From NCBI GenBank assembly GCA_036874045.1, contig CM072340.1, positions 3,611,001 through 3,675,000 on the forward strand: a DNA stretch of 64,000 nucleotides, read 5' to 3'. The notes beneath the pieces were generated by a model, which saw only the letters and a program-made list of their open reading frames with translations, was not told the DNA's origin and ran no database searches. This document shows positions 34,141 to 63,700 of this stretch, in pieces; position 1 is the stretch's first letter, and each line of letters opens with the position of its first letter. This stretch comes from Cymodocea nodosa (lineage: Eukaryota > Streptophyta > Magnoliopsida > Alismatales > Cymodoceaceae). The translations under genes were made by a program, and so were the position numbers.

Positions 34141-34166
34141 GGCATAGAGTTCTTGTTGATCAAACC

Positions 34167-34245: not shown

Positions 34246-34701
34246 CAAAAACACCTTCTCGAGGAAAATCTCTCAAGTGGAAGAAAATTTAGTGAAGCAG
34301 AAAAGGTCAGATTTATGTCGCTGAAGATTTGAAGTATCAGAAGAAAGCAAATTCGGTGAAGCAGAGAAAGACAAGATATTCGTCACTGAAGAATTGCTGA
34401 AGAAGAAAAAAGAGAAGAAGAAAGATCTCAAATAGGGAGAAATGTTTTAAATTCCGTAAATTAGTTTTCTCTGTTTGTAGTTATGAAATTGTTTAGATGA
34501 TACATGGTATCGAGATATAATTGCATCTACAATTTCTGAGGAGAATTGAATTGTATATTGTAATTGAAACCTTGAATAAAAATGATTTTATGAAAACAAT
34601 GTCTCAACTTGTTTTTGAGTTTTAAAGTTTCAATTATATTTCAAAAAATATTAAAGATACACAATTCACCCCCCTCTTGTGTAGCCATACGATCCTACAA
34701 G

Positions 34702-34713
34702 TGGTATTAGAGC
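34702..34713 (+). other. Primer-binding site of copia D
   Basis: TGGTATTAGAGC, one C-to-T change from the initiator-methionine tRNA PBS, two bases after the LTR. Confidence 0.85.
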
Positions 34714-34899
34714 TTTGTTAATAATCTTTGATATAAAATCTATACCAACTTATTGAATATCATTGTTTATTCTACCTTCCTTGTTTTTAAACAGAAATTA
34801 ATATCTGAGCATACGTTTAACTTTCTTGATTTAAGGCTCAAGTTGTTTTAAATCTTTTAGACTGTTTAAAATCAAATAGGTTGAAAAATCTAAGGTAAG

Positions 34900-41700: not shown

Positions 41701-41871
41701 TGATTGAATAAGCTTTATTCAATATTTATTTTATTTCTAAACCCGACTTCTCTTCACGTTGAGTTATACGCCTAAAAACCCTATTTAAACACTTATTACA
41801 CGGGCACTTAGGTTATTTGTAAACTTTGTCAAGAAAATCTTTCCCGCTTGTTGTTGTTACAACCTGCGACG
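41701..41871 (+). promoter_or_regulatory. Promoter-like region of the D accessory gene
   Basis: It carries ACGTTGAGTTATACGC, then AAAAACCCTATTTAAACA (a telo-box-like word followed by TATTTAA) at about 41776-41792, some 85 bp before the ATG at 41872. The leader is free of other strong ATGs apart from one at 41848. Function is inferred. Confidence 0.45.
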
Positions 41872-44136
41872 ATGGTCTCCAAGTTCTACAAAGGTCGTGG
41901 CAAAGGAAAAGGCAAAAGCAAAAGAGATGCCAAAGGAAAAGAAATAGAGAATGATGAAGTTCCACGTACTTGGTTCAAGAAAATATTTCAAGTGGACAAA
42001 AGGTTAGCAGAACTTTATAGAGATTACTTCTTTCCTCAGGATATATTAGATGAAGTTAGACAAGAACTTCAACATACTAATGCAAATATTACATACATGG
42101 GTATTCGAAGTAAATTTGATAAAGAATACAGAATGAAATGTGCTGAGATTGCATTTTTGGAACAGTATGCAAAATATTTGGAAAAAGGTGTAGGTTCATC
42201 AAATAGAACTCCTCAAACTCCTATAAACGATACAAGACTACATGCATTTGAGGAAGAGCATGAATCAGCAATCCCTACTCCTTTATATTCAAAACAAGTA
42301 GAATCAGATATTGCTGTAAACAAAACAAAAGTTGAGGGTCTTTGAAAGGTCGTTGCAATAGAAAGTGTCTTAGAAGAATTAAAGCAGAAAACTTTTATGG
42401 AGCAATTTGAAAAGAAAATAGCAATACTTGAAAAGGAGAAACAGAAATGTTATAGAAGAAGGAAAGTCATAAAAATTATGTCTAAGGAAACAAAGTCTAT
42501 TGAAAAAGGAAAATCAGATGAAAATTTATTTCCAAAGGACAATGTATGTCTAGACATTGTACCTTATTATAGATCTGATAAACTCATCAGTTCTGAACAC
42601 ACTGAAACTGATGAAGATAATGAGACTTTATTTTCCCTTGTTAGAAAGCTTGAGAAGAAATACCAGTCAAATATAAGCTCAAGTTTTTCTATTAGTACAA
42701 GTCCTGATGATGCAGAAATTGATAAATCAGAGCATTAGGCACCTGACATTGAACAAGTTATTGCAGATATAATTGACAATGTTGAGGTAGTAACTAGTTT
42801 AAAGGCTGAATTGTCTGGAGTAGCAGATATTGAAAATGTTAAAACTCTAGAAGAGCTAAAAGTTAACCAACCTTCTATAGAATCTATAGAAATAGAGTCT
42901 GAGAATTCACAGCATGAATCAATGGAAATATCTGTTGAACAAAATGAACAATTACAGACAGATACACCGGCTGTAGAATTTGTGGAAAAATTGAAATCTG
43001 AACATTCTATAGAGACTGAACAGATGAATGTTGAGCATATTGACAATGTTCCTAACTCTGTTGAAGCTGAAGAATCAAGCTTACCTGAGCAGCTTCAAGA
43101 TAATATTTTGGAAGAGGAACAACATAACATTCATTTTGAAGAAGAGGTTCTTGAAGATGAATTAAACTCTGAATCATGGCTTTAGGTATCAACTTCTTTG
43201 TGTATAATATTACAAATTCAAGGTAATGCAATTCATTTTAGATCTGAAGAAGCATTGCAGAAATACTATAATCTGATTACATGTCAGATTCTGCATGCTC
43301 GTCCAATAAAATTCAGAAATTTGATGGAAATAAGAGATCTATTTGAGTTTCAAGGCCTCATTAAATTCTTGCTAGTAGGAACGAAATGGAAGCAATACAT
43401 AGAGCTTATTGCAGCTTTTTATAGCAATCTGGTCAAGAATGGAAATTTTCTGAAATCTCAAATAAATGAACAGGAGTTTATATTGTCTCCTAAGTTAATT
43501 TTTGAAGTTTTAAGATTAAAGAATGATGGTGTTGTTGTTACCAACATATTTGACATGATAAGACAACTGGAATGGAACATTCAGTCTTTATCAAAAATTC
43601 CAAATGTATATTTTGAAATGAGATTAATGGAAAATCTGAATGCAAAGGCAAGGTTTATTGCAAATATATTGCATGCAAATTTATTTCAGAGAGTTGGACA
43701 CAATTTGGAAGTCATCAGAAGCTGTTTTTATGCAACTTATGGCTTGCTGAATAGAATTCAAATAAATTTGTTTGATGTATTTATGTCTCAACTACAGCAT
43801 ATGAGTTCAAAGTTATTTTATGGTGATGCTGTATGTAGAATCCTTGCAAGCCAATTGACTTTATCCGACTAGCCCTCTAAAACTAAAGGCATGAGAGCAT
43901 TTAATATCAAAGATTTGCAGAAATTCCAAGCCATGCATAAACCTCAACGACAACAACAACAACCTGATACAAACCATATACAACAACAACAACAAAGTTA
44001 TTCAGTTCAAGCAGAACAGCAAACACAGCTACCTCCTGACTTAGATGCAGTGCTTAACGACATCAGAAATGATATTAGGCATCTAGGAGATAAAATATGT
44101 AATGCTATAAGTGATATACTTAGGAGGGGTCGATAA
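41872..44136 (+). pseudogene. Accessory protein gene of copia D
   Basis: A single frame of about 754 codons from ATG 41872 (an upstream in-frame ATG is at 41848) broken only by TGA 42343 and TAG 42736, 43183 and 43870. N-terminus Gly/Lys-rich (GRGKGKGKSK), then WFKK and one helical unit (ELYRDYFFPQDILDEVRQEL). A long Glu-rich coiled-coil middle follows, then the conserved domain (43210-43860: ILHARPIKFRNL, AAFYSNL, LRLKNDG, LNAKARFIANIL, CFYATYGLLNRIQIN, KLFYGDAVCRI), then Gln-rich and basic ILRRGR end. It has one helical unit where E and L have two. Homologous to the genes in F, L/E and G; function unknown. The basic ends suggest nucleic-acid binding, an inference only. Confidence 0.8.
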
Positions 44137-44631
44137 TTGTTTTTGTTTGTTTTTGAATACAAAATGTAATGTTTGTATTACTTGTTTGATTCATTGAACA
44201 ATACATTTTTCTGTAAATGTGTTCAATTATTATTCTTGTTTACAGAAATCGTTGTTGTAATTCTCTTATATACATATATATATTCTCTGTAATTATCTTT
44301 TTGATTAATGACAAAAAAGGAGAGAAATATTATAAAAAGATGATTATGATCTTAATTACATATATATATTATAAAAGGAGATGCTATTTAAATGGTTATT
44401 GTAATCTGACAAATGATAATTAAAAAACTGATACTTATATAATTATTGACATCTGAGAGTTTAGTTCTGAGAGGTAAAATTTACACAAACAATAGAAATA
44501 AGCTTAAGTGAACTTAAGTCAACAAACAAGTTTGTTGAATTAAAAGTTAACCCAACGAAGGTGCTTTGTTGAGTTAAACATATTTCATAATTGATTTAAT
44601 ATGGTTTTGTCATCATCAAAAATGGGGAGAT
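44137..44631 (+). other. 3' noncoding tail and polypurine tract of copia D
   Basis: AT-rich. AAAAAAGGAGAGAAAT at about 44313-44328 looks like an upstream purine tract, and AAAATGGGGAGATT at 44618-44631 abuts the 3' LTR. CTTTGTTGAGTTA near 44564 and CCCAACGAAGG belong to the motif family. Confidence 0.65.
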
Positions 44632-46412
44632 TGTTGAGTATTTCTTTTGATGATGTGTGTTGAATGAAAATAATCATATTTGCTCAATTACTATTGCTTG
44701 TGAAAAGAAATTAAAATCATCAATTAATACAGAAAAAGCTTACTAATATAAATACTTGTTTGTATTGGATCTAAAGTTAATAACTAGTCATTTTGTTCCA
44801 TTAATTTCTCATTTAGCTAAACGTTAAGTTAACATGTGGTTTTATTGAAAAGCATGATATGTTTTAAAGTTATATCTTCTGTATCATGAATAGTGCATGT
44901 TTAGACAACTCGTTAAGTTAGAGTTTTGTTTGTATTGAGGTCATGTGAGAACTCGTTAAGTTAGAGGCTTAAAGGTTAAAATAGGTCACGTGATAACTCG
45001 TTAAGTTAGTGAGTAAAAGAAGAGACGAACTCGTTAAGTTAGTGTTATACACGTGGTGAAATTATAAGTTACGAATGTTGTATTGTATCACGTGAGATGC
45101 ACATGTTTAACTCGTTAAGTTAACATAACTAAACGCATTGAGTTGCTATATTGAACACTAAGGCAATGCGTTAGGTTAACGTTATAAACTTAAGTTGTTA
45201 TTTTTGCACGTGGTAAAATTCTTATTATAAAAACATTTGTTTATTACTGAATCGGTGAGTTAAAGTTTTTCAGAGACTTACAGTCATAACTATCTGAAAG
45301 GTAACTTAAGTCATGTTTTCAAGTCTTGACACGTGTCTCACTAGTTTTATAATATAAAGAGTTTTTCGATGACTTACATCTATAACTATCCAAAACTTAA
45401 ACTGTTTTCGGTGAGTTATCGTTTAACCTTCTGAAAGAAAGGTTAAGCTGGTTCGTTAAGTTATCATAACACAATGGAGATGGTTCGTTGAGATAGCATA
45501 ACACCATGGACTTAGTTTGTTGAGTTAGCTACAGTACTTGTCACGTGAAATGGAACATGAGGAACTCGTTAAGTTAGAAATGTTAAGTTATATATATATA
45601 CTTGTGTTACTCGTTTAGTTAACATTAAAGTAACGACTTCTTATTACACTGATGAAAAATTTTTAGACGAGAAAGTTTATTTTGCAAGAAATTTTTCAAA
45701 GATCCAAGACTGATGATTAAAGGAAATTTGAAATATAAACGTGGGTTAGAACGTGTGTGTTTCGATGAAGGAAAAAGAAAAGACGTGGAGAAGTGGAAAA
45801 CTGGTAGTGGTTAAATGTGGAGGATATGCATGAAATGAAGATACAGTATAAAAGGCATAGAGTTCTCGTTGATCAAACCATCCTTGCACACAAAACGAAA
45901 AATCTTTTTAAGGATCAAACCATCCCTACACACCAAAAGAAAAATCTTTTTTAGGGATCAAAAACACCTTCTTGGGGAAAATCTCTTAAGTGGAAGAAAA
46001 TTCAGTGAAGCAGAAAAGGTCAAATTTATGTCGCTAAAGATTTGAAGTATCAGAAGAAAGCAAATTCAGTGAAGCAGAGAAAGACAAGATACTCATCACT
46101 GAAGAATTGTTGAAGAAGAAAAAGGAGAAGAAGAAAGATCTCAAATAGGGAGAAATGTTTTAAATTCCGTAAATTAGTTTTCTCTGTTTGTAGTTATGAA
46201 ATTGTTTAGATGATACATGGTATCGAGATATAATTGCATCTACAATTTCTGAGGAGAATTGAATTGTATATTGTAATTGAAACCTTGAATAAAAATGATT
46301 TTATGAAAACAATGTCTTGACTTGTTTTTGAGTTTTAAAGTTTCAATTATATTTCAGAAAATATTAAAGATACACAATTCACCCCCCTCTTGTGTAGCCA
46401 TACGATCCTACA
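44632..46412 (+). repeat. 3' LTR of copia D
   Basis: TGTTGAG...GATCCTACA, 1781 bp, aligning base for base with 32920-34699. TATAAAA at 45847-45853; both leader hairpin units have perfect stems here (45880-45915 and 45922-45958). Confidence 0.92.
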
Positions 46413-47131
46413 ATTATGCAATTAACCATCATTTAACCGTTAATATTATGCACTTTTTCATTTTAAACACTTCCCCCATACTTAAATTTTGCTAGTCCCT
46501 TAGCAAACTAAGATCTAACTAGTTGGTCTTTCTAAAGTACTAGAATTAATTCTTCACTTCGTTCTTCTTTAGAATAATAAATTAGATTACTATATAGATA
46601 TTCTATATATTTCAGTAATCTATTTTAACTTTGTTTTCTCCTCTTTAACCTGCAAATATATTTAGAACATATGTAAATTACATACAAAATATATCAACAT
46701 CATATAGGTGTTAATTATATTATCATTTTTTCTTATTTTCAGCATTTGTCATCCCGAATTTTCCAATATGATTTCCAGAATAAATTTCAACAACATACAA
46801 ATCAAAACACAATCCAATTCAATATGATTAAGACAAGTAGAATAAAGAATTGTATCTCAGATAAACAACTTCAAAAGTCTATTCTAGATTCATACTTTAG
46901 TAATCTTAGATAACAGAAAATATACTCGATTCAAAAGATATTTGTATTTCACAAAACACTTGTATCTTTTCAGAACAGTATATGCATATTTGTACTTGAA
47001 AAGTTAATTTGACAAGCTTGAATCATACAAGAGCTTTCTAGTGTATCGAGCTTTCAATCAACAATCCCAGATCTGATTAGGACCTTAGGTTGCCAAATTT
47101 AAAGAGTCTTTTTTAGGTCAACAATCCTTAC
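46413..47131 (-). mobile_element. Gypsy element I: LTR start, polypurine tract and 3' tail
   Basis: After the D TSD the interrupted LTR resumes (46418-46469) and ends at its 5' terminus. On the minus strand it is preceded by GTATGGGGGAAG (46470-46481), and 46482-47131 matches the 3' tail of G (about 61010-61660). So this LTR has a PPT on one side and a PBS on the other. H is inserted at 47132. Confidence 0.75.
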
Positions 47132-47469
47132 TGTTGAGTATTTTATTTTAATGATGTGTGCTGAATGAAAATAATCATATTTGCTCAATTACTATTGCTT
47201 GTGAAAAGAAATTAAAATCATCAATTAATATAGAAAAAACTTACTGACATAAATACTTGTCTGTATTGGATCTGAAGTTATTAACTAGTCTTTTCGTTGC
47301 ATTAATTTCTCATTTAACTAAACGTTAAGTTAACGTGTGTTTTTTTGAAAAGCATGATATGTTTCAAAGTTATATCTTTTGTATCATGAATAGTGCACAT
47401 TTAGACAACTCGTTAAGTTAGAGTTTTGTTTGTATAGAGGTCACATGAGAACTCGTTAAGTTAGAGGCT
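47132..47469 (+). repeat. LTR of copia H (D type), left part
   Basis: TGTTGAGTATTTTATTTTAATG... matches the first ~340 bp of the D LTR, up to GTTAGAGGCT, where gypsy G interrupts it. It continues at 63701 after the TSD. Whether it is a solo LTR or part of a full element cannot be seen. Confidence 0.88.
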
Positions 47470-49469
47470 TGTTTAGAATGAAATAGTGCATATTATTAAC
47501 AGTTAAATGATGGTTAATTGCATAATATTTAGCTTATCATATAAGAATTAAGCCATTAAGTTATAATTGCACTGTTATATGCTTTAATTGAAGAATCTAC
47601 TTAATTTGGGGGAATTAATGTTAATTTAGTACATTTATGAACTGTCGGTAAGTTGCAAGCTGTGAAATTCTTAAGTATCCAAATTTTCTAATATTTTTGG
47701 ACAATTATGTTTAACATACCGAACATATTCGGACAGTTATATTTAACAGACCGAACATGTATCGGATAGTTATGTTTAAAGTGTCGAACAGTTATGTTTT
47801 GAGAGAATATTTTATTATTTCCTGAAGTACACGTGTCGAAACCATAATGAATAGACTTAAGTGGATTTTCGGTGAGTTAGCTGTAACTATCCAAAATGCA
47901 TCTAAGCATCGGATAGTTAAGTTTATAAGTATTCGAAATGCACTTGAGCATCGGATGGTTAAATTTATGCACGTGTTGAATTTAAATGCTTTAGTATATC
48001 ACGTGAAATGCACATGTTTAACTCGTTAAGTTAGCATAACTGTACGCGTTGAGTTACATGAATATTACACTAAGGTAGCGCGTTATGTTAGTAGCTTATT
48101 TCTTTATATTTTCTAATATGCCACTGTAGCGGTTGCAGAAACAGACAGTTGGAAGAGAAAAACCACGTTTGCACATATCACGCAGGAATTCAATCGCGTA
48201 GGGAGAAGAAAGCATCGTCGTTGATATGAGTGAAGGAAATCCAACCGACCATTCAAGTAGAAGCAGTTACTACTAAAGAAATATAAAAGAAAAGAAGAAA
48301 AAAAGAAGTGTGTGATCAATGGGCAGACAGTGTGTGCAGAGGAGGATCGGCGACGCAATTCTCTGAAGTACCACACCAACCATCATCATCACCATCATCA
48401 CCACCATAATCACCAACCATCGGAGGTCTGTGAGGATACTTGTCTGATGTCGGGTCGATTCCGAGCCAAACATAGTGCCTGACAACCACTAGGAGGAGTG
48501 ATCGTGTCGCGGGAAGGGAAGCCATTTACACCAAGCGCTAACTCATATTTCAGGAGATCGTAAGCTTTTAGCCTTGGCTTCGGGTTGATGCCTGTATGCT
48601 GAAGAGGAGATCATCTTGCAATTCTAGACTCGCGATTCTATAGGGAGAGGAGACGGGATTGTAAGTGGTTTAATTTTCAATGGTGTAATCGTGTTGCAAG
48701 TAGTGTCGGAAGTATTTACTATCAAATGAGATTACTTTACATTTCACTTGTCGCCCATTTTCATGTTCATATTAAAACAAAAATACCAAAAACAATTTAT
48801 CTATGTTTGTATGTTGTATTTGAGTGTTGTATTGTTTGTGTTGTATCGTGATTAATGTTATCTTTGTCAGTGTTGTGATTGTTTTATGTTTATTTTAGTT
48901 TTATAGTTTACTGAAATTGGTTAGTTCAAAAGACGTAAAGAATTTAATGGTTACTGTTTGAATTATTTGAATGTTAGTATTGCTCAATGATAAATCCAAT
49001 GTTAACTAACATTAAAGAGCTTAATTGATGTTATTTACAATCTGTGGAATCGCCCAATGGTTGGTCGAATTCCTCTATAGCAATATTAAAAAGAAAAGTC
49101 AGGCTCGTGGAGTTAACATAAGTCCACGAGGTTAGTCCGTTGAGTTAACCATAACTCAACGAACGTAGTCCGTTGAGTTAGCTGTAATTCAACAGAGAGC
49201 TTATTGAATATATAAATTTGATTTTTAACAAACAAATAGTTCTCAAGTTCGTCAGAAATTCCCTGTGGGATTGACCTGTACTTGCACACTGATACAATAG
49301 ACACTGTGCACTTGCAGTTAAAGTACAAATTGGAATTAATATCTAAATTGTATTAAAGGTTGTTTGTTTACTTCTAAAAGAGAGAATAGGCATAAAGATA
49401 AATTAACTAAGTAAAAATAGAAGTAACAAATCCAAGTTTTTCTAGTGTAGTGCTGGGAAAACCCAAACA
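47470..49469 (+). repeat. 5' LTR of gypsy G
   Basis: TGTTTAGAATG...AACCCAAACA, 2000 bp. TATAAAA at 48282-48288. Motif words include ATCGGATAGTTA (47761-47772), TTCGGTGAGTTA (47868-47879), CTCGTTAAGTTA (48022-48033), CTCGTGGAGTTA (49104-49115) and TCCGTTGAGTTA (49136-49147). A more GC-rich island at 48120-48700 contains an antisense ORF. Confidence 0.92.
48282..48288 (+). promoter_or_regulatory. Candidate TATA box of the G LTR
   Basis: AATATAAAAGAAAAG context, repeated at 62487-62493 in the 3' LTR. It is the best TATA candidate in the LTR. Confidence 0.5.
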
Positions 49470-49476
49470 AGTTTTA

Positions 49477-49494
49477 TGGCGCCGTTGCTGGGGA
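49477..49494 (+). other. Primer-binding site of gypsy G
   Basis: TGGCGCCGTTGCTGGGGA, one base from the tRNA-Asp type PBS known from Athila/Tat elements, seven bases after the LTR. Confidence 0.85.
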
Positions 49495-49578
49495 ATTGAA
49501 TTGAATAGATAAAAGCAACTATTAGAGCTATTTCGTTTTAATAGCCAGAGATGTGTGTTTTCTTCTGTAATTGAGAAT

Positions 49579-52500
49579 ATGGCATATGCTTATGCTCAAA
49601 GATTTCTGAAACCTGTAATTAGCATATGTGAATTCTGCAATTCTGAAGGACACGACATTTCTGACTGTTTGAAATTGAGACATTTACAGATGGTTAGATC
49701 CCATGAACAACAAATGAATTATCCTCAACATAATAGAGACGAGTATGAGAATCCTATAGTTTACCCAACTAATGGTTAGTATAGAATGTGTAATATGATG
49801 AGAGACACTGAAGTTTGGGATAGCTATGACAGACTGGAGCATAGTATAGAGCAAAATCTGGATAAACTGGAATACTTTGTGTGTCAACAACAAGAAGTCA
49901 ACCAATTAAACTATAAGGAGGCATATTCAGAACCTAAAAAGGATATAATTTATGAAACTGAAAAAATCATAAAGAAAATTGATCAACAAGTGAATGCAAT
50001 GAAATTAGATGATCTGAAAAAAAAATTAAAAGCATTAGACGAAAATGCAATGAAAATACAAGTTATGCAACAGGATAATGAAAATTATAATGTTATAAAC
50101 CTGCATAATTTGCAAAATATACAGCAAATAGAAAATACTAATGCAAGAGAATTTAAAGAATGCACTTTAAAACTAAAAACAATTGAAAATCATAATCACG
50201 AAAATGATATACAAAAACATCATGAAAGTAACGAAAATCTAGAAGATATATGTGTAACATTAAGATCTGGAACTGATATACCACCAAGAACTCAAAATGA
50301 AAATGATATGAAGGTGGATAAGAGTAAAAATCAAAGTGATAATGAAAATGTAATAGCTAAAAATCTAGAAATCACTAAAAAACAATCTGAATCTGCGAAT
50401 GAAGCTAAAAATGATCAAACAAATCAACTAAAAGAAAAAGAGTCTTTGAAATCAAAATCTTTAGTACCCTATCCTGAAATATTACAACAAAGAATTCCTG
50501 AAAAACAAAAAAAAATCAGAGAAATTTTTGAAAAAGTACAAGTTAACATTCCTTTGTTAGCTCTATTGTAGAAAATGCCACCTTGTGCTAAATTTCTTAA
50601 GGATTGGTGTACTAAGAAAAGAGAGTGAAAAGTTCTTAGAAAGGTCTTTTTAGCTGAGCAAAGTAGTTCCCTATTTCTGCCACAAATTCCTAAAAAGTTA
50701 TCTGATCCTGGAATCCCTATTATATCATGCACCATAGGAAATACCATTCTAGAAAGAACTTTAATAGACTTAAGTGCAGGTATAAATGTTATTCCAAGTG
50801 ATATATTTGCATCCTTAGGATTAGAAGGCTTAACTCCTACTAATACGGTTATTCAATTAGCTGATAGAAGTATAAGATACCCTAGAGGAAAAATAGAGGA
50901 TGTCTTAATTAAAATAAAATTTTTTATATATCCTATTGATATTGTAATTTTGGATTCCCAACAAATTAAGCATAAAAATAGTGATACATCTTTAATTTTG
51001 GGAAGGCCATTTTTAGCAACATTAGGGGCTACTATAAATTGTAAAACTGGAGTAATGAAGTTAGCATATGGTAATGAGGATACTCAATTAAATATTTTCA
51101 AACCAGAAAGGTTTGAGGAGTTAGAAATGTCGTTACATACCATAGACTTTTTAGAGGATGAAGGAGATATGTTAGATGATGTGATTCAAGAAGAATTAAA
51201 TAGGTAAATCAATTTTGAAACTTTAGAAGAAAGTGAAAGCATAAAAATAGAAGGAGATCGAGAAGAAATTAATTTAAAAAATGATGATGTTCAATTAGGA
51301 GCTATAGCTTCTGATGGGCAGCATTTAGAATTAAAACATTTACCTCCTGAATTAACCTATATATTTCTGGAAGATAAATGAACCTATCCAATCAATATTG
51401 CTTCAGATTTAAAAGAGTATCAAATAGCTAAATTAAAAGATGTAGTAAAAAGTTATAAAGAAGCAATAGGATGGACTATGACTGATATTAAAGGGTTAAG
51501 TTCAACTTTATGCTGTCACCACATATATTTAGAAGAGAATGCTAAACCTGTTAGAATTCCTGAGAGGAGATTAAATCTAAACCTTAAAGAAGTAGTTAGG
51601 AAGGAAATAGTTAAATAGTTAGATAATGATATAATTTATTCGATTTCTGATAGCTCGTGGGTTAGTCCAATCCATATAGTTCCCAAGAAATCAGGATTAA
51701 CAATTATTAGGAATGAAAGTCAAGACTTGATACCTACTAGAATTCAATCAGGCTGGAGAGTATGTATAGACTATAGAAAGCTGAATGCTGTGACTAGGAA
51801 AGATCATTTTCCCTTACCTTTTATAGATCAAATGCTGGAAAGATTAGCAGGGCAAGAATATTTTTGTTTCCTAGACGGGTATTCAGGTTATAATCAAATT
51901 TCAATAGCATTAGAGGATCAAGAGAAAACAACTTTCACGTGTCCTAATGGAACTTATGCTTTTAAAAGAATGCCATTCGGATTATGCAATGCGCCAGCTA
52001 CCTTTCAAAGATGTGTGCAGGGCATATTTACTGGAATGATTGAAGATTTTTTAGAAATATTTATGGATAATTTTACTGTATATGGAAACTCATATGAAGT
52101 GTGTTTAAGCAATTTAGACCGAATATTAAAACGCTATGTGGAAAAAAATCTGGTTTTAAATTGGGAAAAATGTCACTTCATGGTTAAACAAGGAATAGTC
52201 TTAGGGCATGTTGTTTCTAAAAAAGGGTTGGAAGTAGATAAAGCTAAAATAGAAGTAATATCTAATCTACTAGAACCTAAATCAATAAAAGATATTAGAT
52301 CATTTCTAGGACATGCTGGTTTTTATAGAAGATTTATTAAAGACTTTAGCAAGATAGCTAGACCTTTAACTAATCTATTAAAAGATGTTCCATTTAACGT
52401 TGATAAAAATTGCAAGGAAGCATTTTTCAGACTTAAGACTAGCTTAATTTCGACTCCTATAATTCAAGCACTTGATTGGAACCATCCATTTGAATTAATG

Positions 52501-52824
52501 TGTGATGCTTCTTATTTTGTTGTAGGAGCACTGTTAGGACAGAAGATAGAAAAATCTCCTAGAGTGATTCATTATGCAAGCAAAACCTTAAATGATGCTC
52601 AAGTTAATTACACAACTATTGAAAAAGAATTATTAGCTGTTGTGTTTGCTTTAGAAAAGTTTAGATCATATCTGATTGGAGCTAAAGTAATAGTATACAC
52701 GGATCATTCAGCTCTAAAGCATCTAATAAAGAAAAAAGAAACTAAACCTAGATTGATCCGATGGATATTATTATTACAAGAATTTGATCTAGAATTAAAG
52801 ATAAAAAAGGTTGTGAGAATGTAG
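49579..52824 (+). pseudogene. Nucleocapsid-PR-RT-RNase H polyprotein of gypsy G
   Basis: One frame from ATG 49579. Residues 17-30 are a CCHC zinc knuckle (CEFCNSEGHDISDC). A Gln/Asn-rich linker, CVTLRSGTDIPP (gag C-terminal block) and IPLLALL...MPPCAKFLKDW precede protease (LIDLSAGINVIP, where DLGAS is usual; LGRPFLAT). RT has [30 protein letters not shown] and FMDNF: the second catalytic Asp is Asn (codon 52069-52071). RNase H has [20 protein letters not shown] and [10 protein letters not shown]. Stops: TAG 49777, 50569 and 51616; TGA 50626 and 51379; TAA 51205. No capsid domain precedes the knuckle: only 84 bp separate the PBS from the ATG. Confidence 0.88.
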
Positions 52825-54221
52825 TAGCAGATCATTTATCAAGATTACAAATAGAAAAATCAAATATTGAAATTAAGGTTAATTTTCCTAATGAACAATT
52901 AATGACCATTAACACAATGCCTTGGTATGCAAACATAGTTAATTACTTAGTTATTGGTTTAACACCTAAGGATTGGAATAGACAGGATAAGAAATTGTTT
53001 TTCTCAAGAGTAAAATATTACTATTGGGAAGAGCCATACTTATTTAAGAAATGTTCTGATCTGGTTTTAAGGAAGTGTGTTCTAGAAACTAATTATCCAA
53101 GCATATTGTCTTTCTGTCATGACCAAGCTTGTGGAGGGCATTTTGATTCAGGGAAAACTACTGCAAAAATTCTGCAATGTGGGTTTTATTGGCCAACACT
53201 ATTCAAAGATGCTCATAAATATTGCTTAAGTTGTTTAAGATGTCAACAAATAGTAAGAATATCAAAGAGGAATATGATGCCTCTTAATCCTATTGTTGAG
53301 GTTGAAATCTTTGATGTGTGGGGAATAGATTTTATGGGTCCATTTCCTATGTCTAATCAATTTAATTACATATTGTTGGGGGTGGATTATGTATCTAAAT
53401 GGATAGAAGCTATTCCTACAAAAACTAATGACAACAAAGTGGTAATTCAATTTATAAGAACAAATATATTTGCCAGATTTGGAATACCTAAAGCTATTAT
53501 CAGTGATAGAGGAACTCATTTCTATAATAGAAGTTTTGAAGCCTTAATGAAGAAATATGGAGTAAACCACAAAATTGCAACATCATATCATCCGCAAACA
53601 AGTGGACAAGTAGAAAGTGCAAACAAACAAATTAAATTAATCTTGGAAAAAGTAGTAAATCCTACTAGAACAGATTGGGCTAATAGATTGATAGATGCAC
53701 TTTGAGCTTATAGAACTGCTTATAAAACGAGCTTAGGTATGTCACCTTTTAGGCTAGTATATGGAAAAAGTTGTCATTTACTTGCTGAAATAGAACATAA
53801 AGCTTATTGGGCATTAAAAACTCTGAACACTAATTTAAATCAAGCTGCTAAAAATAGAAAAATGTAATTAATTGAATTAGAAGAATTTAGAAATGAAGCT
53901 TATTCGAATATTGTAAGAGAAAAAGAAAAAATTAAATTTTGGCATGATAGAAAAATTATTCCAAAAAGCTTTGAAATAGGACAAGAAGTATATCTTTATA
54001 TGGCTAGACTCCATAACTATCTACAAAAATTGAAATCTAGATGGGCAGGACCTTACATAGTTCGAAATGTTTATCCTTATGGAGCTATTGAAATTGAAAA
54101 TCCTCAAAATCAGAATATATTTAAAGTAAATGGACAAAGACTTAAACCTATTCTAAAAACACCAAAAAGCTCCTTTAGAATTATAGAAGAAGTTAGAGTA
54201 GAGGACTACTCGAGCTTTACT
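52825..54221 (+). pseudogene. Integrase region of gypsy G
   Basis: It continues pol after a one-base deletion near 52800 (the [15 protein letters not shown] junction). Zinc region with HDQACGGHF and CLRCQQ, catalytic core DVWGIDFMGPFP, ISDRGTHF and HPQTSGQVE, then [12 protein letters not shown] and the C-terminal RWAGPYIV block. TGA at 53703 stands at the normally conserved Trp of ALWAYRTA, and TAA at 53865 at a Gln position. It ends with the TAG just after 54221. Confidence 0.86.
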
Positions 54222-54224
54222 TAG

Positions 54225-54780
54225 TAAGAAATCAGCTTTGATGTTTATATATAAATAAATAAATAAAACATTAAAAATATATATAAAACATAAAAATCAT
54301 TGCAGTTCAACCGACTGGATCTATTGGTATGACCGAAACATAAAAAAAAAAAAAATTGTTGGTTTTACCGAAACATGGTATCGATTCAACCAAAAGAAAA
54401 ATTAAAAAAAATAAATAAATAAATATATATATATATATTTTTTTAGGTCTGATCGAAACATAGTATCGGTTAAACCAGTAACAAAACAGAAAAACTATTC
54501 TCTATAATATTTTTTATTATATTTGCTTGTATGGGGAGTTCATTGAGTTACGCTTAACTCAACGAGCTTACTCTGTTGAGTCTTGAGTTAGTCAATGAGC
54601 TTATTCCGTTGAGTTAACTATAACTCAATGGAGTACTGTAGCTAAGACCTCGTATTAAATAGTAATAGTTGGTTTAGGAAATGACCCAATTACCCACCTA
54701 AACTTAGGGCTTATTTAAACTAAAAGCTAGGGTTTTGGGGGCATTATCCGGCAAATCATTTAGAATCTAGAACAGTAGAA
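54225..54780 (+). promoter_or_regulatory. Spacer upstream of the G accessory gene
   Basis: Positions 54290-54490 hold about three diverged copies of an ACCGAAACATGGTATCG-like repeat between A/T runs. Positions 54535-54640 hold palindromic TTGAGTTA / TAACTCAAC words. A TTATTTAAAC (54711-54720) and CTAGGGTTTTGG (54729-54740, telo-box complement) precede the coding region. The arrangement is like that before the D accessory gene. Function is inferred. Confidence 0.5.
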
Positions 54781-54839
54781 ATCAGAGCGATTCCATGCTG
54801 TTGTGTAACTCCACGATGAGGAAGATGACACTTGAATTC

Positions 54840-56971
54840 TGAGAAGAGGTTGTTGATACATCAGAATTTCTAAGGGAATCAGAAGAATGGCACACGTGGT
54901 AGAAGATCAGAAATACAACGAGAGAAAAAGAGTTATAGAAGGTAGAATCTGAACTTTTTAGAGTAAGAAAAATATTAGTAGATTGTGGTATACCAGAAAT
55001 ACTAGTAGATTGTAGTCCGGTCAAACAATGAAGTAGCCCTAGAGCTAATTCAACGTAAAACCAGATTGTGGTTTAAGAAACGCATTGCTGGTCGAGGAAG
55101 TTGGGAAATATGGTAGTAGGAACAACGAGAGACAACTGAAGGACAAGAGGAGCCAATTGCTAAAAGACCTGTTCCTGAGGAGTAGTAGCCTGGGCCTTCA
55201 ATTCCACCATTTAAGCTGTTGGCACGAGTAGAAATGATGGGGCCTTCAACTAAAGAAGAAATAAGAGAATTTGCAGAACTAGTTCAAGTTGGGAAGAACC
55301 AAGGAGAATCAGAAGATTTGGTAGTGGCCAAAGCACACCTAGTGTTTGATGCACTTTACAAAAAGAGGGCTATAGAAAAGTTGAAAGCCCAATATAAAAT
55401 CAAATTGGAACAACATCACGAAGCTACTACCAGAATTGCTGCCAAACCTGCTGCAAAAGGAGATGAAGCTAGTCCTTCGAGACCAGTAATTATAGGAAAA
55501 GTTAAACAGGAAGAGCCAGTACTTGTGGCTCGAAGGCCTATAGAGCCTATTTTCGTAGATTTAATTTCAGAAGATGAAGAGGAAGAATAGGCACAATTAA
55601 TAAGAAAAAAAGAAAGGAAAAGAAAAAGTGCCTGAATATGAGGAAATTAAATCTGAAGTACCAACTTTTACAGGGCTTGTGGAGCAGATTTTTATTAACC
55701 TACTATTCGAATCTGAGGAGCAAAGAAAAGAAAAAAATCAGGCTGAAATTAATCTACAGCCTATACAAGAAGAAACAGAAATTAGGGTAGAAACTGAATT
55801 GCCCATGACTCCATCCCAATCTGTTACAGAATCAGAAAGAATAGTAACAAAATATATTGGTAGTCAGGAGGAGCAAGAAAGAGTAGAAAATGAAGAGGCT
55901 AAAAGAAGTCATTTGGACAAAAATAATTTCACAGATTCCATTGAAGAACAAGAAACTCTTCAGCAAATTATGTAGAGAATTCAAGACGGAGTGGAGAGTT
56001 CTACCGGCTCACCACCACAAACAGAAATAGAAATTCAGGAATCTGTAGAAAATATTCAAATGCAGCCTATAGAAGAAGAAGAGCAAGAGCAAACCCCTCT
56101 AGAGCAACAAAGTCACCTTTTTGACCCTACTGAAACAACAATTTTGAATGAAGTACATTTTTGTAATCAGGAAGCTTATACCAAATATCAAGAAATAAGG
56201 GGTTACGACATTATTTACAGTAGACCAGTAAATTGGGATGGAATGCAAGAAATCAAAGAATTATTTGAATTCCAAGGTCTACTGCAATTTATATCTCAAG
56301 AAAGAGAGCATGCAGTATATGAAAATTTAGTGCCCTGTTTCTATGCAAATTTGAGAGAAAGAGAAGGAGGATTAATTTCAAACGTGGAGGAAGCTGATGT
56401 AAAGATAACACTAGAGCTTCTCCACAACAAATTTGGTTTAAAGAATGAAGGAACAAAAATTTTGGAAGATACAACTGCAGTTGAATGGACTGAACAGCAA
56501 ATTAAGGATTGTTTAGCTATCAATCCTGGTGTGCCATTATTAAATAGATTGAAGCATTTAAATGGTAAAGCACACATGGTATCTAACATTCTAATTAAGA
56601 ATGTCTATCAATGATAGGGCCATGACATAGAATTAAGTCAATTTGTCAAGTGGGCCACATATGCAGTTGTAAATAAGTTCCAAATAAATTGGTCTGCAGT
56701 TTTTGTCTCCAAGCTGAAAACAGTGAAGAAGAAATTATTTTATGGAGATTTGATTCCACTATTGATGATGGACTGTATCGATTTCACTAAATGGACATCA
56801 AAAAGGATCAGATCAAGAACCATTTCAGTGAAAGAATACAGAAATTTTGTAGCTACAGAATTAGCTGTACCTTCTAGAGGAATTACAGGAGCTGTAAAGA
56901 GGATTAATCAATTAGAGTTTCAATTAGAAAAACTCCAGAAGGAAGTAGATGAACTTAGGCATAGAGATTAA
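54840..56971 (+). pseudogene. Accessory protein gene of gypsy G
   Basis: Start uncertain: the coding frame can be followed back to about 54840 with no clear ATG. Stretches NQKNGTRG, LIQRKTRLWFKKR (compare WFKK in D) and KEEIREFAELV lie in one frame to 55590, then a frameshift near 55600. A Glu-rich middle follows, then the conserved domain 56150-56800: VHFCNQEAYTKY, IIYSRPVNWDGM, LVPCFYANL, FGLKNEGTKI, LKHLNGKAHMVSNIL, ATYAVVNKFQINW, KKLFYGDLIP. The C-terminus has a short coiled coil (INQLEFQLEKLQKEVDEL). TAG pairs at 55114-55119 and 55183-55188 look like former Gln-Gln. It is the gypsy counterpart of the copia accessory genes. Confidence 0.75.
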
Positions 56972-57874
56972 ATTATATTGTTCGTCTACTTATGTAAAAT
57001 TGCATGAAATTGTATGATGTACTTGTATTGTAATTGATTCATATTAATGAATGTAAATTTTTCAAATGCAATTTTCATACGTGTTTTGGATGTGAAATGA
57101 ATGGAATTTATTGAATATTATGTTATTGTGAAACTTTATGAATGAATATATAACAGATTTACAATTTGCTCAATGACAAGATAACTGCTTAAAAATTTCT
57201 ACATGTTATAAGGTAAAATGTAAATTCTGCATAACATAAAATGACCTGCAAGTTAAATCTTTATATAATGCTCAGATTTAAACGTATTTTAATTAGAATG
57301 ATGCATTAATGACATAGATTTAACTTTATTACAGTTAGCAAAATGAAAAAAAAGAAAAAAAAGAACAGAGAGGAACTTACGAGAGTAAAACTTAGTTGTT
57401 GCCAAGTGTTAACTCAACGAAGTAAGTCCACTGAGTTAACCGTAACTCCACGAGGTTAGTAATATAATATAAAGTCACTCCGTTGAGTTATCTGTAACTC
57501 AACGAAGTTAGTCCATGGAGTTAGCAATAGTAACCGACTGTATTCTGTTGAGTTTTCTGTAACTCAATGAGGTTAGTTCGTGGATTAAGCAGAACGGTTA
57601 TTCTTTTAACCACGAATGAAGCTTCGTCGGTTTAGCGGTTACTGAAATTTGAAATTAGCAGTGGTACACGTACCCATATAAACAAGAACCACGATGCACG
57701 TTGCAAGACACGTTCTTGCAACAAGATTTATTCACTTTATGGATGTGCAATATATATATAAAACAGAATGTTATTTACGAGTTACCAACACTTTTAAAAG
57801 AAAGGAGAAGGCGTTGGAGGAACTAGAAGGAGAAGCAGCTGATTCAACTTCATCCGACAACAAATATTTATAGA
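56972..57874 (+). promoter_or_regulatory. Spacer, motif array and TATA box before the capsid gene
   Basis: AT-rich to about 57390, then 57410-57600 is dense in TAACTCAACGAAG / CCGTTGAGTTA words. TATATATATAAAA at about 57751-57763 lies about 112 bp before the ATG at 57875, suggesting a separate promoter for the 3' genes. Inferred. Confidence 0.5.
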
Positions 57875-59265
57875 ATGGAAAACTTCAGACTGGTATGTAA
57901 TTAATCTTCTGCTATTTATTTATGAGCACATGGACTCGTTCTCTAAGCACTAAACAATTAGTAAGAACACCTACCTAGGAATTTTCATTGCAGAGGAGTG
58001 CTGAAAAATTTTCTGAACTGAACTTTAACGAAATTCTTTGGGGTGTAGCTAACCTTTCTTTAAAAGAGAATATAAAGATGGTTGCTCCAGTAGAAAAACC
58101 ATTAGGAGAGATTCTGTATCTTGAATTAATTGATGAACCTTCATGTATTCAATTGCCAAACTTTGAGGGAGATAGGTTTGAACTGAAATCTAATTATATT
58201 AGTCAATTACCACATTTTCATGGATTAGAAAGAGAGTATGGCTATTATTTCCTTAGAGAATTTAACGAAGTTTGTCAAATGATGAAAATGCTGAACATGA
58301 GTATAGATGCTATTAAACTTAGATATATCCCTTTTTCTTTAAAAGACACAGCTAAGAGATGGTTATATACTCTATCGCCTGATTCAATTTCTACATAGAT
58401 TGAATTTTGCTCTATTTTTCTGGAAAAATATTATCCAACACATCAAATGATTAAAAAGAAAAAAGAAATATTAATGTGTAGCCAAAAATAGGGTGAATCA
58501 TTCTGGAAATATTTTGAAAGATTTAAAGATTTACTGACTCAATGCCCACATCATGCAATGAGTAAAGCACAATTAATAGGTATAATTTATGAAGGCATAA
58601 ATGTTTCAACGAAATCTTTATTAGAATCTACTTGTCAAAATGGATTTTTAAAGTTATGTAGTGAAGAAGCATGGGCATATTTAGAAAATTTTGCAAAAGG
58701 AACTGCATAGTGGGAAAATTCGGCTGAAGCTAATGCAGATAAAAGAAAATTGCCAAGAGGAATGCATGAAATAGATTCCAATACTATGCTTGAGGTGAAA
58801 TTAAATGAATTAACAAAGAAAATAGAAGAGTTATCATTCAATCAAAAGCTAGCAGAAAAGAATGCAAACATAAATGACTTAGATATTATTTATACTAGAA
58901 ACCAAAGAGATAACATGGGAAATTCTTATCATCCTAATTGGAGAAATCACCCGAATTTATCTTGGAGAAACAACTATTTCCAAGGAGGAGAAAATATAAA
59001 TGAGAAAAACATAAGTTATGAAGTATTAATTGAACAAGGAGCTAGAATAGAGAAATTAGAAAAGATAATCCAACAAGTAAACAATTGTCTAGAATTTATA
59101 TTTGGAAATGTTGCAATTCAAAATCAGAATAGAAATATATCACTTAGACAGAAGGAACCAAAGGAAGTTAGACCTACTCGAGGATTGCCAATACAAGCTA
59201 TACCTAATCCTGTCAATAGAATGATTAATGAAATTGATACCTCTTCTGGGAGGGCAATTGAATGA
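57875..59265 (+). pseudogene. Relocated, spliced capsid (gag N-terminal) gene of gypsy G
   Basis: Exon 1 is 57875-57892 (six codons, MENFRL); intron 57893-57993 (GTATGT...TTGCAG, 101 bp, phase 0); exon 2 runs from 57994 to a TGA at 59263. Exon 2 encodes the Athila-type gag domain: IQLPNFEGDRFELKSNYI, LREFNEVC, LRYIPFSLKDTAKRWLYTL, FLEKYYPTH, KYFERFKDLLTQCPHHAM, then WRNHPNLSWRNNYF and a coiled coil (ARIEKLEKIIQQVNNCLEF). Three TAG stops (58396 at an expected Trp, 58489, 58708). The zinc knuckle normally between these parts is absent here and found instead at 49627. Position, intron and own TATA are unusual for gag. Confidence 0.78.
57893..57993 (+). other. Predicted intron 1 of the capsid gene
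   Basis: GTATGTAATT donor, AT-rich body, TTTTCATTGCAG acceptor, 101 bp. Removal joins ATG-exon 1 to the capsid frame without a shift. Prediction from sequence only. Confidence 0.6.
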
Positions 59266-59290
59266 AGCAGCATATCTGAAGCAACTCTCT

Positions 59291-59448
59291 GTATGTATAT
59301 ATGTTTTTTTTATTTTTAGTTAATAGTATCGTAGAGTTAATTTTTAACTCAACGAACTTAGTTTGTTGAGTTATGCCTTAACTCCACGAGGGTGTGCAGT
59401 AGTTATGTTAATTTTTGTCTCTGCTAAATTTTTGTTTGTGTTTTACAG
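59291..59448 (+). other. Predicted intron between capsid and F-box ORFs
   Basis: GTATGTATAT donor at 59291, TTTTACAG acceptor ending at 59448, 158 bp, T-rich. A motif palindrome (TTAACTCAACGAA / TTTGTTGAGTTA) lies inside at 59338-59372. Confidence 0.55.
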
Positions 59449-59457
59449 AATCGACAA

Positions 59458-59931
59458 ATGGAATTGAAGCAATTACCAATGGATGCACTAAGAGAAGTAC
59501 TAAGTAACTTGTCAACTAAAGATTTGTGCAGGCTGTGTTGTGTATCAAAGGAAATTAAAGACTGTATTGAAGAAAAATATATTTAGGGACTACAAGCTGC
59601 AAAAATGACTAAGATTAGAGATGGATTCATATGGAGGTCATTTAATCGTAGTTCAAATACCCCTGAATATCTGGCTATGGAAGAAACTACTGGAATTCCA
59701 CCCAATGCATTAGAAGGAATAAATCATATTATGGGGATAGATGAAGGATTAATCATATACAAGACGAGACCAAGGTATGCAAGTTTATTATTACCAGATA
59801 TTGTGATAAGAAATCCTATAACAAGAGAAGAATGGAATATAGGAAGACCTAATAGATTTGAAGCACCAACTGTAAATTGTGGGTCAACTTTGATATTTAA
59901 GTTTTCTAAAGTTGTGATTTTGTGTGTTTAA
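59458..59931 (+). pseudogene. F-box-like ORF captured in gypsy G
   Basis: 157 codons with one TAG at 59584. Residues about 4-42 fit an F-box: LPMDALREVLSNLSTKDLCR followed by LCCVSKEIKDCIEE. F-box proteins bind SKP1 in SCF ubiquitin ligases. After a linker, IMGIDEGLIIYKT and IVIRNPITREEWNIGRP resemble the start of an F-box-associated repeat (GL-, NP.TRE-type blocks). It is much shorter than usual plant F-box proteins (several hundred residues), ending at TAA 59929-59931 shortly after. The ATG lies 10 bp after a predicted splice acceptor. It is not a normal retrotransposon gene; capture from the host is the likely origin. Confidence 0.7.
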
Positions 59932-61662
59932 TGTTGTATGTATTCTACATTTATTGTTAAAAAAAAAAAAAAAAAAAATTAAGTTTTCATTTTTATTTTA
60001 TAAAAGAAAAAAAAAACAAAATATCAATCCAATTTGTTGGTATCTGTTCTGGGAAACCAACTAGCTTGCTTGTGAGCCACCAAAGGCATAAGAGCCTGGG
60101 TTCCACATAAGACACTGATTTATTAATATTTGTTAAATGTTATTTTGTTTTATATTTTGCTTTTATCTATGAATGAAAAGTTTTTCAGAATCAAAAATCA
60201 GAATATGCAGAAGGAGATACAAATGAAACAAGGTATGTAACTAATTACTCATCCTCAATTTTAAATCAAGCAAAACTATATTCATGCCTGCTACAATTAC
60301 TGTACTTATTGTAAACTCTTTTTACATTGAGGACAATGCAAAATGTAGGTATTGGGGGGAGATAATTGAAGTAACAGCCATGTAAGTTTGTTAATTAAAG
60401 AAATTAAAATGGTACTGCAAAGTTTTGAGGAAATTGAAAATTTTATGAACTTGCTGTAACTATTTGATAATTGAGACTGTAAAATTTTTATAAACTGCTT
60501 GAATGTTATATTTAGAAGGTTATATAAGATGCTATTGAATTTACTAGTTATGCAAATTTAAATATAGTATTTTATGTTTTTCTGAATTTCATGAGTTTAA
60601 CAGTTTCACGATTTTAAAATGAAATCAGAATGCTTAATGAAAAATCAGTAAATTATCTGAAGTCCTGAAAGAGCTGAGATGTGAATTCTAGATAAAATGA
60701 AACACATATGATTAAAGATACATTTAATTTGACTGATTGAACTTGTAGAATGATTTATGTGTAGATCTTATTAAACTACAGAAAAAGTATGAGCTTATTG
60801 TTATGGATTTATATTTTCAATAACTGATAGAAGTAGGACTATATGAGATTGGTAATTACAACATTTATATTAATGAAATACATACATATATAGTATGTGA
60901 TTAATGTTTTGTTTTGTGTATGTAGTTTTGAAAAAAAAAAAAAGAAGGAAAATTTGAGAGTTTATTGACTTGTTTGATCACGAGCCTTTTGTACTTGAGT
61001 AAATAGGTATGTAAGGATTGTTGACTTGTAAAAGGACTCTTGAAATCTGGCAACCTAAGATCCTAATCAGATATGGGATTGTTGACTGAAAGCTCGTTAC
61101 ATGGGTACATTAGAAAGCTCTTGTATGATTCAAGCTTGTTAGATTAACTTTTAAAGTACGAAAAAAAAAGAAAAAAAGAAAAAAGAAAAAATATACATAT
61201 ACTGTTCTGAAAAGATACAAGTGTTTTGTGAAATACAGATATCTTATGAATCGAGTATATTTTCTGTTATCTAGAATTGTTGAAATATGAATCTGGAATT
61301 GACTTTTGAAGTTGTTTAATGGAGATACAATTCTTTATTCTACTTGTCTTAATCAGATTGAATTGGATTGTACTTTGATTCGTATGTTGTTGAAATTTCT
61401 TCTAGAAATCTTATTGGAAAATTCAAGATGATAGATGATGAAAAGAAGAACAAACGATAATATAATTAACACCTATATGATGATGATATACTTGGTATGT
61501 AATTTACATATATTCTAAGTATATTTGCAAGTTGATTACTGAAACATACAAAATATATTTTTATGCTAAATAGAAGAAAAACAGAAGGGGAAGAATTAAT
61601 TCTAGCACTTTTAAAGACCAATTAATTAGATCTTAGTTTGCTAAGGGACTAGCAAAAATTAG
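59932..61662 (+). other. 3' noncoding tail of gypsy G
   Basis: Poly-A runs near 59960 and 60936. At 60324-60362 an ACATTGAGGACAATGCA block followed by TATTGGGGGGAGATA resembles the conserved pre-PPT sequence of Athila/Tat elements. From 60660 it matches copia D (40540-41390), including the conserved block at 60956-61140. A/G-rich run 61160-61195. No ORF. Confidence 0.65.
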
Positions 61663-61674
61663 ATATGGGGGAAG
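61663..61674 (+). other. Polypurine tract of gypsy G
   Basis: ATATGGGGGAAG directly before the 3' LTR; the same tract is at about 30535-30545 and inverted at 46470-46481. Confidence 0.8.
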
Positions 61675-63695
61675 TGTTTAGAATGAAATAGTGCATATTA
61701 TCAACGATTAAATGATGGTTAATTGCATAATATTTAGCTTATCATATAAGAATTAAGCCATTAAGTTATAATTGCACTATTATATGCTTTAATTGAAGAA
61801 TTTGCTTAATTTGGGGGAATTAATGTTAATTTAGTACATTTATGAACTGTTGGTAAGTTGCAGGCTGTGAAATTCTTAAGTATCCGAATTTTCTAATATT
61901 TTCGGACAGTTATGTTTAACATACCGAACATATTCGGACAGTTATGTTTAACAGACTGAACATGTATCGGATAGTTATGTTTAAAGTGTCGAATAGTTAT
62001 GTTTTGAGAGAATATTTTATTATTTCCTGAAGTACACGTGTCGAAACCATAATGAATAGACTTAAGTGGATTTTCAGTGAGTTAGCTGTAACTATCCGAA
62101 ATGCATCTGAGCATCGGATAGTTAGGTTTATAAGTATCCGAAATGCACCTGAGCATCGGATAGTTAAATTTATGCACGTGTTGAATTTAAATGCTTTAGT
62201 ATATCACGTGAGATGCATATGTTTAACTCGTTAAGTTAGCATAACTGTACGCGTTGAGTTACATGAATATTACACTAAGGTAGCGCGTTATGTTAGCAAC
62301 TTATTTCTTTATATTTTCTAATATGCCACTATAGCGGCTGTAGAAACAGACAGTTGGAAGAGAAAAACCACGTTTGCACGTATCACGCAAGAATTCAATC
62401 ATGTAGGGAGAAGAAAGCATCGTCGTTGATATGAATGAAGGAAATCTAACCGACCATTCAAGTAGAAGCAGTTACTACTAAAGAAATATAAAAGAAAAGA
62501 AGAAAAAAAGAAGAAGTGTGTGATTGATGGGCGGACAATGTGTGTATAGGAGGATCGGCGATGCAATTCTCTGAAGTACCACACCAACCATCATCATCAC
62601 CATCATCACCACCATAATCACCAACCATCGGAGGTCTATGAGGATAATTGTCTGGTGTCGGGTCGATTCCGAGCCAAACATAGTGTCTGACAACCACTGT
62701 GAGGAGTGATCGTGTCGCGGGAAGGGAAGCCATTTTCACCAAGCACCGACTCATATTTCAGGAGATCATAAAGCTTTTAGCCTTGGCTTCAGGTTCATGC
62801 CTGTATGCTAAAGAGGAGATCATCTTGCAATTTTGGACTCGCGATTCTATAGGACGAGGAGATAGGATTGTAAGTGGTTTAATTTTCAGTGGTGTAATCG
62901 CATTGCAAGTAGTGTCAGAAGTATTTACTGTCAAATGAGATTACTTTACATTTCACTTGTCGCCCATTTCCATGTTCATATTAAAACAAAAATACCAAAA
63001 ACAATTTATCTATGTTTGTATGTTGTATTTGAGTGTTGTATTGTTTGTGTTGTATCGTGATTAATGTTATCTTTGTCAGTGTTGTGATTGTTTTATGTTT
63101 ATTTTAGTTTTACAGTTTACTGAAATTGGTTAGTTCAAAAGACATAAAGAATTTAATGGTTAATGTTTGAATTATCTGAATGTTAGTATTGCTCAATGAT
63201 AAATCCAATGTTAACTAACATTAAAGAGCTTAATTGATGTTATTTACAATCTATGGAATCGCCCAATGGTTGGTTGAATTCCTCTGTAAATAGCAATATT
63301 AAAAAGAAAAGTCAGACTCGTGGAGTTAACATAAGTCCACGAGGTTAGTCCATGAGGTTAGTCCGTTGAGTTAGCCATAACTCAACGAACGTAGTTCGAT
63401 GAGTTAGCTGTAATTCAACGGAGAGCTTATTGAATATATAAATTTGATTTTTAACAAACGAACAGTTCTCAAGTTCGTCAGCAATTCCCTGTGAGATCGA
63501 CCTATACTTGCACACTGATACAGTAGACACTGTGCACTTGCAGTTAACGTACAAATTGGAATTAATATCTAAATTGTATTAAAGGTTGTTTGTTTACTTC
63601 TAAAAGAGAGAATAGGCATAAAGATAAATTAACTAAGTAAAAACAGAAGTAACAAATCCAAGTTTTTCTAGTGTAGTGCTGGGAAAACCCAAACA
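61675..63695 (+). repeat. 3' LTR of gypsy G
   Basis: TGTTTAGAATG...AACCCAAACA, 2021 bp, close to the 5' LTR; most differences are C/T or G/A. It has one extra motif unit near 63347 (GTCCATGAGGTTA) not in the 5' LTR. Confidence 0.92.
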
Positions 63696-63700
63696 AGGCT

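Follow-up and report, generated by a model that had tools for sequence, protein, structure and literature searches.

A stretch of 64,000 nucleotides from Cymodocea nodosa (contig CM072340.1, positions 3,611,001 to 3,675,000), here called the window, carries an Athila-like gypsy retrotransposon, element G, in which the capsid-bearing part of gag lies behind pol. All coordinates, repeat comparisons and empty sites refer to the window, and the LTRs, genes and other stranded features of G are on the + strand. G is a single bounded insertion of 16.2 kb (47470-63695). The 5' long terminal repeat (LTR; TG...CA, 47470-49469) is 2000 bp long, and the 3' LTR (61675-63695) is 2021 bp; the ends of both read TGTTTAG...CCCAAACA. 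Over 2000 aligned sites their identity is 95.65%, with 77 transitions and 10 transversions (Kimura two-parameter distance 0.0453), which gives an insertion age of about 1.7 million years at a substitution rate that we take to be 1.3e-8. Reading inward, the 5' LTR is followed by a primer-binding-site (PBS)-like TGGCGCCGTTGCTGGGGA (49477-49494), presumably of the tRNA-Asp type, and the 3' LTR is preceded by the polypurine tract (PPT) GATATGGGGGAAG (61660-61674).

An earlier note on this DNA, made from its letters alone, had placed both parts of gag between the same two LTRs, flanked by a perfect target site duplication (TSD), and the insertion site bears this out. AGGCT is present at both flanks (47465-47469 on the left, 63696-63700 on the right). 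The host site is inside an LTR from another family, and the joined flanks match four paralogous host LTRs without interruption and with the site present once (33180-33337, 44890-45049, 19782-19939 and 29977-29812). Because the LTRs, TSD and empty sites are those of a regular insertion, the displaced gag belongs within the LTR pair. That it was already there when G inserted is the simplest reading, though not proved. An assembly error is an extremely unlikely source of the arrangement, since nothing is irregular at the LTR-PBS-gene and PPT-LTR junctions, the two TSD copies are identical and the four empty sites are concordant.

The two parts of gag lie on either side of pol

The first open reading frame (ORF; 49579-50568) begins 84 bp past the PBS. 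It opens with a CX2CX4HX4C (CCHC) zinc knuckle, CEFCNSEGHDISDC, continues through a long linker to the motif TLRSG (as VTLRSG), and has a TAG at 49777 and no capsid domain. Pol follows in pieces: protease (PR; 50629-51207), reverse transcriptase with RNase H (RT and RH; 51619-52824), and integrase (IN; 52788-54224), the last in a different frame with 2 internal stops. The RT and RH matches (Pfam RVT_1 and RT_RNaseH) and the integrase matches (H2C2 and rve) are strong; the protease match is weak (Asp_protease_2, 2.4e-3, under the curated cut-off). A knuckle profile built from the corresponding regions of 61 relatives scored 14.1 bits in the first ORF against 6.3 for the best shuffled domain, and gave no positive score for the 3' gag frame. 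Apart from the weakness of PR, Pfam and this profile agree with the earlier description of a knuckle-first ORF that runs into PR-RT-RH-IN with no capsid there.

Capsid is encoded in a separate frame (57994-59265), 8.4 kb downstream of the first ORF and past both pol and the accessory ORFs. This frame matches PF03732 (1.2e-16 over 57994-59262), contains WRNHPNLSW, a coiled coil and LPIQAIPNP, ends in SSGRAIE-stop, has TAG codons at 58396, 58489 and 58708, and lacks a knuckle. Aligned with the whole gags of relatives, it corresponds to gag from near the N terminus on; motifs including LPxQxxPNP are present and the knuckle stretch is absent. Clearly, the Athila-type capsid domain lies where it had been reported, about 8 kb 3' of the first ORF and without its knuckle. 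No second locus for the capsid was found in the window, and with this frame G is not a gag-less element. A repeat-based search at 57-60 kb recognised neither a nested DNA transposon nor a retroposed gene.

The gag tail was examined with a profile of the WRNHP-to-LRSG region from 58 relatives. The 3' frame scored 23.8-26.0 bits over model positions 1-111, and the 5' ORF scored 12.0 bits over model positions 15-144, where the composition bias was 12.8; the best shuffled domain reached 8.8.

A structure was predicted for the 3' frame with TAG read as Q. The block-mean predicted local distance difference test (pLDDT) score was 71-94 over residues 21-210, in a model built with an alignment of relatives, which says little about the G copy alone. 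The 50 listed PDB matches to this model are capsids (dArc, PNMA2, HIV, SIV), with a best E of 4.8e-3 and none at 1e-3. Capsid and RT searches of viral contigs returned pattern matches and no relative (0/8, 0/11 and 0/25 stretches confirmed), and an NCBIfam scan gave no match.

Genes behind pol and their palindromic arrays

Accessory ORFs (55189-56971) lie between pol and the capsid gene. Behind the capsid is an ORF (59458-59931) with an F-box (2.1e-10), a TAG at 59584 and an A20 run at 59959-59978; the span given earlier for the split gag, 49579-59265, omitted it. No relatives of the F-box ORF were found (12 candidates, none at 1e-3). It may have been captured from the host or may encode an F-box protein borne by the element. 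No confident model of the accessory protein was obtained (pLDDT 37, six sequences).

The palindromic motif TAACTCAACGA, with 1 mismatch permitted, has 80 matches in the window, where 1.5 would be expected. In G it occurs 7 and 6 times in the LTRs and 13 times between ORFs, with no match in the ORFs or the 3' untranslated region (UTR). The between-ORF matches form three LTR-type arrays, which precede the accessory ORFs (54540-54816, 4 matches), the capsid gene (57410-57591, 5 matches) and the F-box ORF (59329-59389, 4 matches). All three match one block of the LTR, at LTR positions 1615-1750; in the 5' LTR the array is at 49105-49180, and the block ends 29 bp before a TATA-like ATATATAAATT (49209-49219). 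With lenient gap costs the comparison was uninformative (919 for the pre-capsid array, shuffled maximum 908), so stricter costs were used. The accessory, capsid and F-box arrays then scored 75, 85 and 55 with the LTR of G, against shuffled maxima of 36, 45 and 38 (100 shuffles), and 32, 50 and 41 with a neighbouring copia LTR, below the scores with the LTR of G.

The capsid gene had also been said to possess its own TATA box and intron. An LTR-like array and a TATA-like TATATATATAAAA (57751-57763, about 160 bp past the array) do precede it; the TATA box and a candidate GT-AG intron of 100 nt (57894-57993), which would bring an ATG at 57876 into frame with gag, are readings of the sequence only.

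Four further loci of the window carry ORFs related to the 3' half of the accessory ORFs (55976-56971): 43138-43932, 19055-19456 with 21217-21447, 1501-717 (- strand) and 6112-5432 (- strand). Two of these lie behind a same-strand copia-type RT (RVT_2), namely 43138-43932 after 38803-39690 and 6112-5432 after 10084-9041. The accessory protein family is common to G and copia elements of the window. In the copia element at 32918-46413, array motifs (41664 and 41756) directly precede its own accessory ORF. Between its pol and accessory ORF, a 1.1 kb stretch (40334-41399) matches the 3' UTR of G (60470-61581) at 67% identity, an apparent case of non-coding modules exchanged between superfamilies.

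The same copia element splits a second, minus-strand copy of the G family (31007-32919 and 46413-47131). The 3' LTR of this copy is 31007-32919 plus 46413-46467, and its 3' UTR reaches 47131. The break point is after 61727-61731 in the coordinates of G, and the inner part of the copy is expected past the right end of the window.

Capsid and RT have a common nearest relative

Relatives of G, which we take to be Athila elements (the database gives no lineage name), were drawn from the best 120 of 1804 protein matches; in 18 of them capsid and RT are both well covered. Among these 18 the closest for both capsid (50%) and RT (72%) is P0032, a normal gag-pol protein of 1811 residues. In both the capsid tree and the RT tree, built with these 18 relatives, G is placed near P0032, P0036, P0037 and P0045, and its terminal branch is the longest (0.989 and 0.444). 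The median capsid/RT distance ratio of G, 3.00, falls within the range of the 18 relatives, 2.23-3.94.

Proteins that start at most 40 residues before a knuckle number six among the matches listed. In P0026, P0044 and P0060 the first ten residues occur within longer listed proteins, so these are probably truncated gene models, whereas P0047, P0097 and P0115 remain candidates for proteins that truly begin at the knuckle.

Capsid and pol have decayed alike

At columns shared by 94% or more of the relatives, G has kept 31/35 in capsid and 200/222 in RT; in the lowest conservation class the figures are 44/164 and 36/95. Internal stops were compared with the number expected from LTR divergence: 3 against 0.89 in gag, 6 against 1.99 in knuckle-PR-RT-RH, 2 against 1.03 in integrase and 1 against 0.21 in the F-box ORF. 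Because the stop rates of gag and pol agree, gag is not an older relic. The in-frame TAGs, the six pol stops and the out-of-frame integrase with its 2 stops show that this copy of G is broken. The idea that all stops arose by CAG to TAG changes was dropped, as 6 of the 12 internal stops are not easily so read and other stop codons are present.

These results bear on two alternatives. In one, a deletion made G a gag-less parasite, and a fragment bearing gag and the F-box ORF was inserted later as an unrelated event. Gag-less plant families do exist, among them Retand clusters (PMC11963269). Two such events are nevertheless very unlikely, because neither terminal repeats nor a target duplication was recognised on the flanks around 56500-60500 and capsid decay matches pol decay. 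In the other, the 3' gag is a regulator, a knuckle-less Gag that hinders particle assembly of related elements together with an F-box protein whose targets may be proteins of the host or of elements. The absent knuckle, the separate gene and the adjacent F-box ORF suit this role, for which RTL8 acting against PEG10 is a precedent (PMC11684626). G would then be without any other capsid and dependent on a helper. The conserved capsid columns are retained as well as those of RT, and the capsid part is confidently modelled, which is more than an inhibitor fragment needs; we judge this role improbable.

Discussion

G is most likely a new architectural variant of an Athila-like element, and the order of its gag parts is confirmed. 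The earlier note held that the capsid gene had moved to a site downstream of both pol and the accessory gene. The order within one LTR pair stands, and in place of a plain move we prefer duplication of gag followed by complementary loss, since gag tail sequence appears in both ORFs. Such a history predicts a tail found twice, capsid only at the 3' site and the knuckle only at the 5' site, as is apparently the case, and fits the sequence better than a simple move. The 5' copy would have lost capsid and, with its knuckle, come to stand at the head of the pol polyprotein. Its 3' counterpart would have kept capsid and tail, lost the knuckle and come to end before protease, grouped with the accessory and F-box ORFs.

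The array layout resembles that of Sireviruses and leads us to propose that the genes of G were separately driven. In Sireviruses, repeated motifs form LTR palindromes upstream of the TATA region and recur upstream of ENV, with 77 of 79 linker copies located there (PMC2829016). G likewise has palindromic repeats in its LTR and upstream of a gene behind pol. Unlike Sireviruses, which are Ty1/copia elements with a CGG-CCG core, G has a gypsy pol and the core TAACTCAACG/CGTTGAGTTA, and its array is found ahead of three genes, gag among them. In the mechanism we propose, the LTR would drive a full-length RNA that is both the genome and the mRNA for pol. Copies of the array from G's own LTR stand ahead of the accessory, capsid and F-box genes, which would be transcribed or spliced separately, so that the dose of capsid could be set without regard to that of pol. 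Pol would be carried to the RNA, and hence into the particle, by its knuckle, in place of a Gag-Pol fusion. G would then be a decayed Athila-like member whose gag was duplicated and split between two places and whose genes, separately expressed and co-packaged, once functioned. We hold this reading, the likeliest of those considered, tentatively, at a little under an even chance. It is just as possible that the arrays are sites of recombination through which cassettes can be moved.

In LTR elements and retroviruses, the Gag:Pol ratio is normally set by gag-pol fusion or frameshift, and Gag draws Pol into the particle. If the proposal is true, a capsid separate from pol with its own regulatory array is a second solution to Gag:Pol dosage, and packaging of Pol without fusion to Gag becomes testable.

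Several observations weigh against separately driven genes and a split gag. The arrangement is known from one broken copy only. The exact nodes that place G are poorly supported, at 61 for capsid and 29 for RT, and in the RT tree P0061 also falls inside the group. Capsid and RT similarity are loosely correlated among the 18 relatives (rho 0.44, p 0.064), and capsid and PR similarity are uncorrelated among 63 (rho 0.13, p 0.31). The closest PR relative among the matches listed is P0027, not P0032, and the capsid/RT ratio for G and P0032, 1.90, falls slightly below the relatives' 5-95% band of 2.02-4.80. The 5' tail evidence consists of TLRSG and the weak, composition-biased 12-bit match. At the 3' site the TLRSG equivalent, TSSGRAIE (LRSGK in relatives), was assigned by eye, and the profile match ends before it. 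TATA-like motifs are frequent in A+T-rich DNA, TATAWAW occurring 33 times in G. A strict CCHC is absent in 15 of the 61 relatives with capsid and WRNHP, including P0045 near G, some of these cases being degeneration or faulty gene models; we therefore no longer treat knuckle loss in the 3' copy as special by itself. Finally, the internal stops total 12 against 4.1 expected since insertion, about three times as many (49579-54221 and 57994-59931). This excess suggests that coding constraint ended earlier or that decay outran the LTR clock, and G was probably already defective at insertion and moved in trans by helpers.

Two of these points, the single copy and the excess of stops, suit the main rival, a one-off recombinant. 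Here a template switch between two co-packaged Athila-type RNAs, one with pol and the accessory gene and the other a gag-bearing non-autonomous RNA, would have yielded an element that inserted once in trans and was never a working design. Among Arabidopsis Athila elements some are non-autonomous, with gag only or with gag plus env, and recombinants make up at least 4 of the 13 lineages (PMC2410132); in Triticeae, template switching fuses two parents into a single inserted element (PMC1950507). Complex elements of the template-switching kind described by Sabot and Schulman join two parents, often around a shared LTR. In G, however, neither an LTR remnant nor a PBS was found between the accessory and capsid genes, where the LTR match outside the arrays scored 26 against a shuffled mean of 26. 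Capsid groups with the relatives of G's own pol, and the capsid array is closest to G's own LTR. A template switch alone also leaves the missing 5' capsid unexplained. A one-off recombinant is a real possibility, albeit a doubtful one.

A wider version of the split-gag proposal concerns more than one element. VANC proteins act on repeats in the non-coding parts of VANDAL transposons (PMC10398659). Because the array motif and accessory gene are common to gypsy and copia elements of this genome, one element-borne factor, comparable to VANC, could activate both. That a whole plant gypsy lineage consists of separately promoted genes, with a knuckle-headed pol, array-headed accessory, capsid and F-box genes, capsid uncoupled from pol and such a factor switching on gypsy and copia elements, we consider rather unlikely.

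In the open-licence PMC literature no case of gag behind pol was found, most subscription papers being outside that search. BARE-2 is cited as a gag-less plant element. Some Retand clusters are also gag-less, and G resembles them in that its first ORF is pol without capsid (PMC11963269); unlike BARE-2 and these clusters, which are without any gag, G has gag elsewhere. Bdelloid rotifer retroelements have ORF types common to different groups (PMC5408684), much as the accessory ORF of G occurs in gypsy and copia elements; unlike in rotifers, the displaced gene in G is gag itself. In Arabidopsis Athila, recombinant and non-autonomous elements reassort gag, pol and env modules between families, a process G may recall; there, unlike in G, pol-bearing elements all have gag, and the accessible text makes no mention of gag behind pol (PMC2410132).

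G is closest to the Athila lineage of Ty3/gypsy, with which it shares pol domains in the order RT-RH-INT, long LTRs, an extra ORF behind pol and gag motifs; its PBS, presumably of the tRNA-Asp type, may be a further feature in common. A second, archaeal-type RNase H, the mark of Tat, was not among the Pfam matches of the scanned pieces, no search having been aimed at it. The known Athila order is GAG-PROT-RT-RH-INT, and the survey that describes it removed any element whose domains were duplicated or in an unexpected order, taking such cases for probable mispredictions (PMC6317226); if the architecture of G is real, such filters may conceal others. Athila has GAG first, fused or adjacent to PROT, whereas in that place G has a knuckle-first ORF, its capsid-bearing gag (57994-59265) being a frame of its own that follows pol and the accessory gene.

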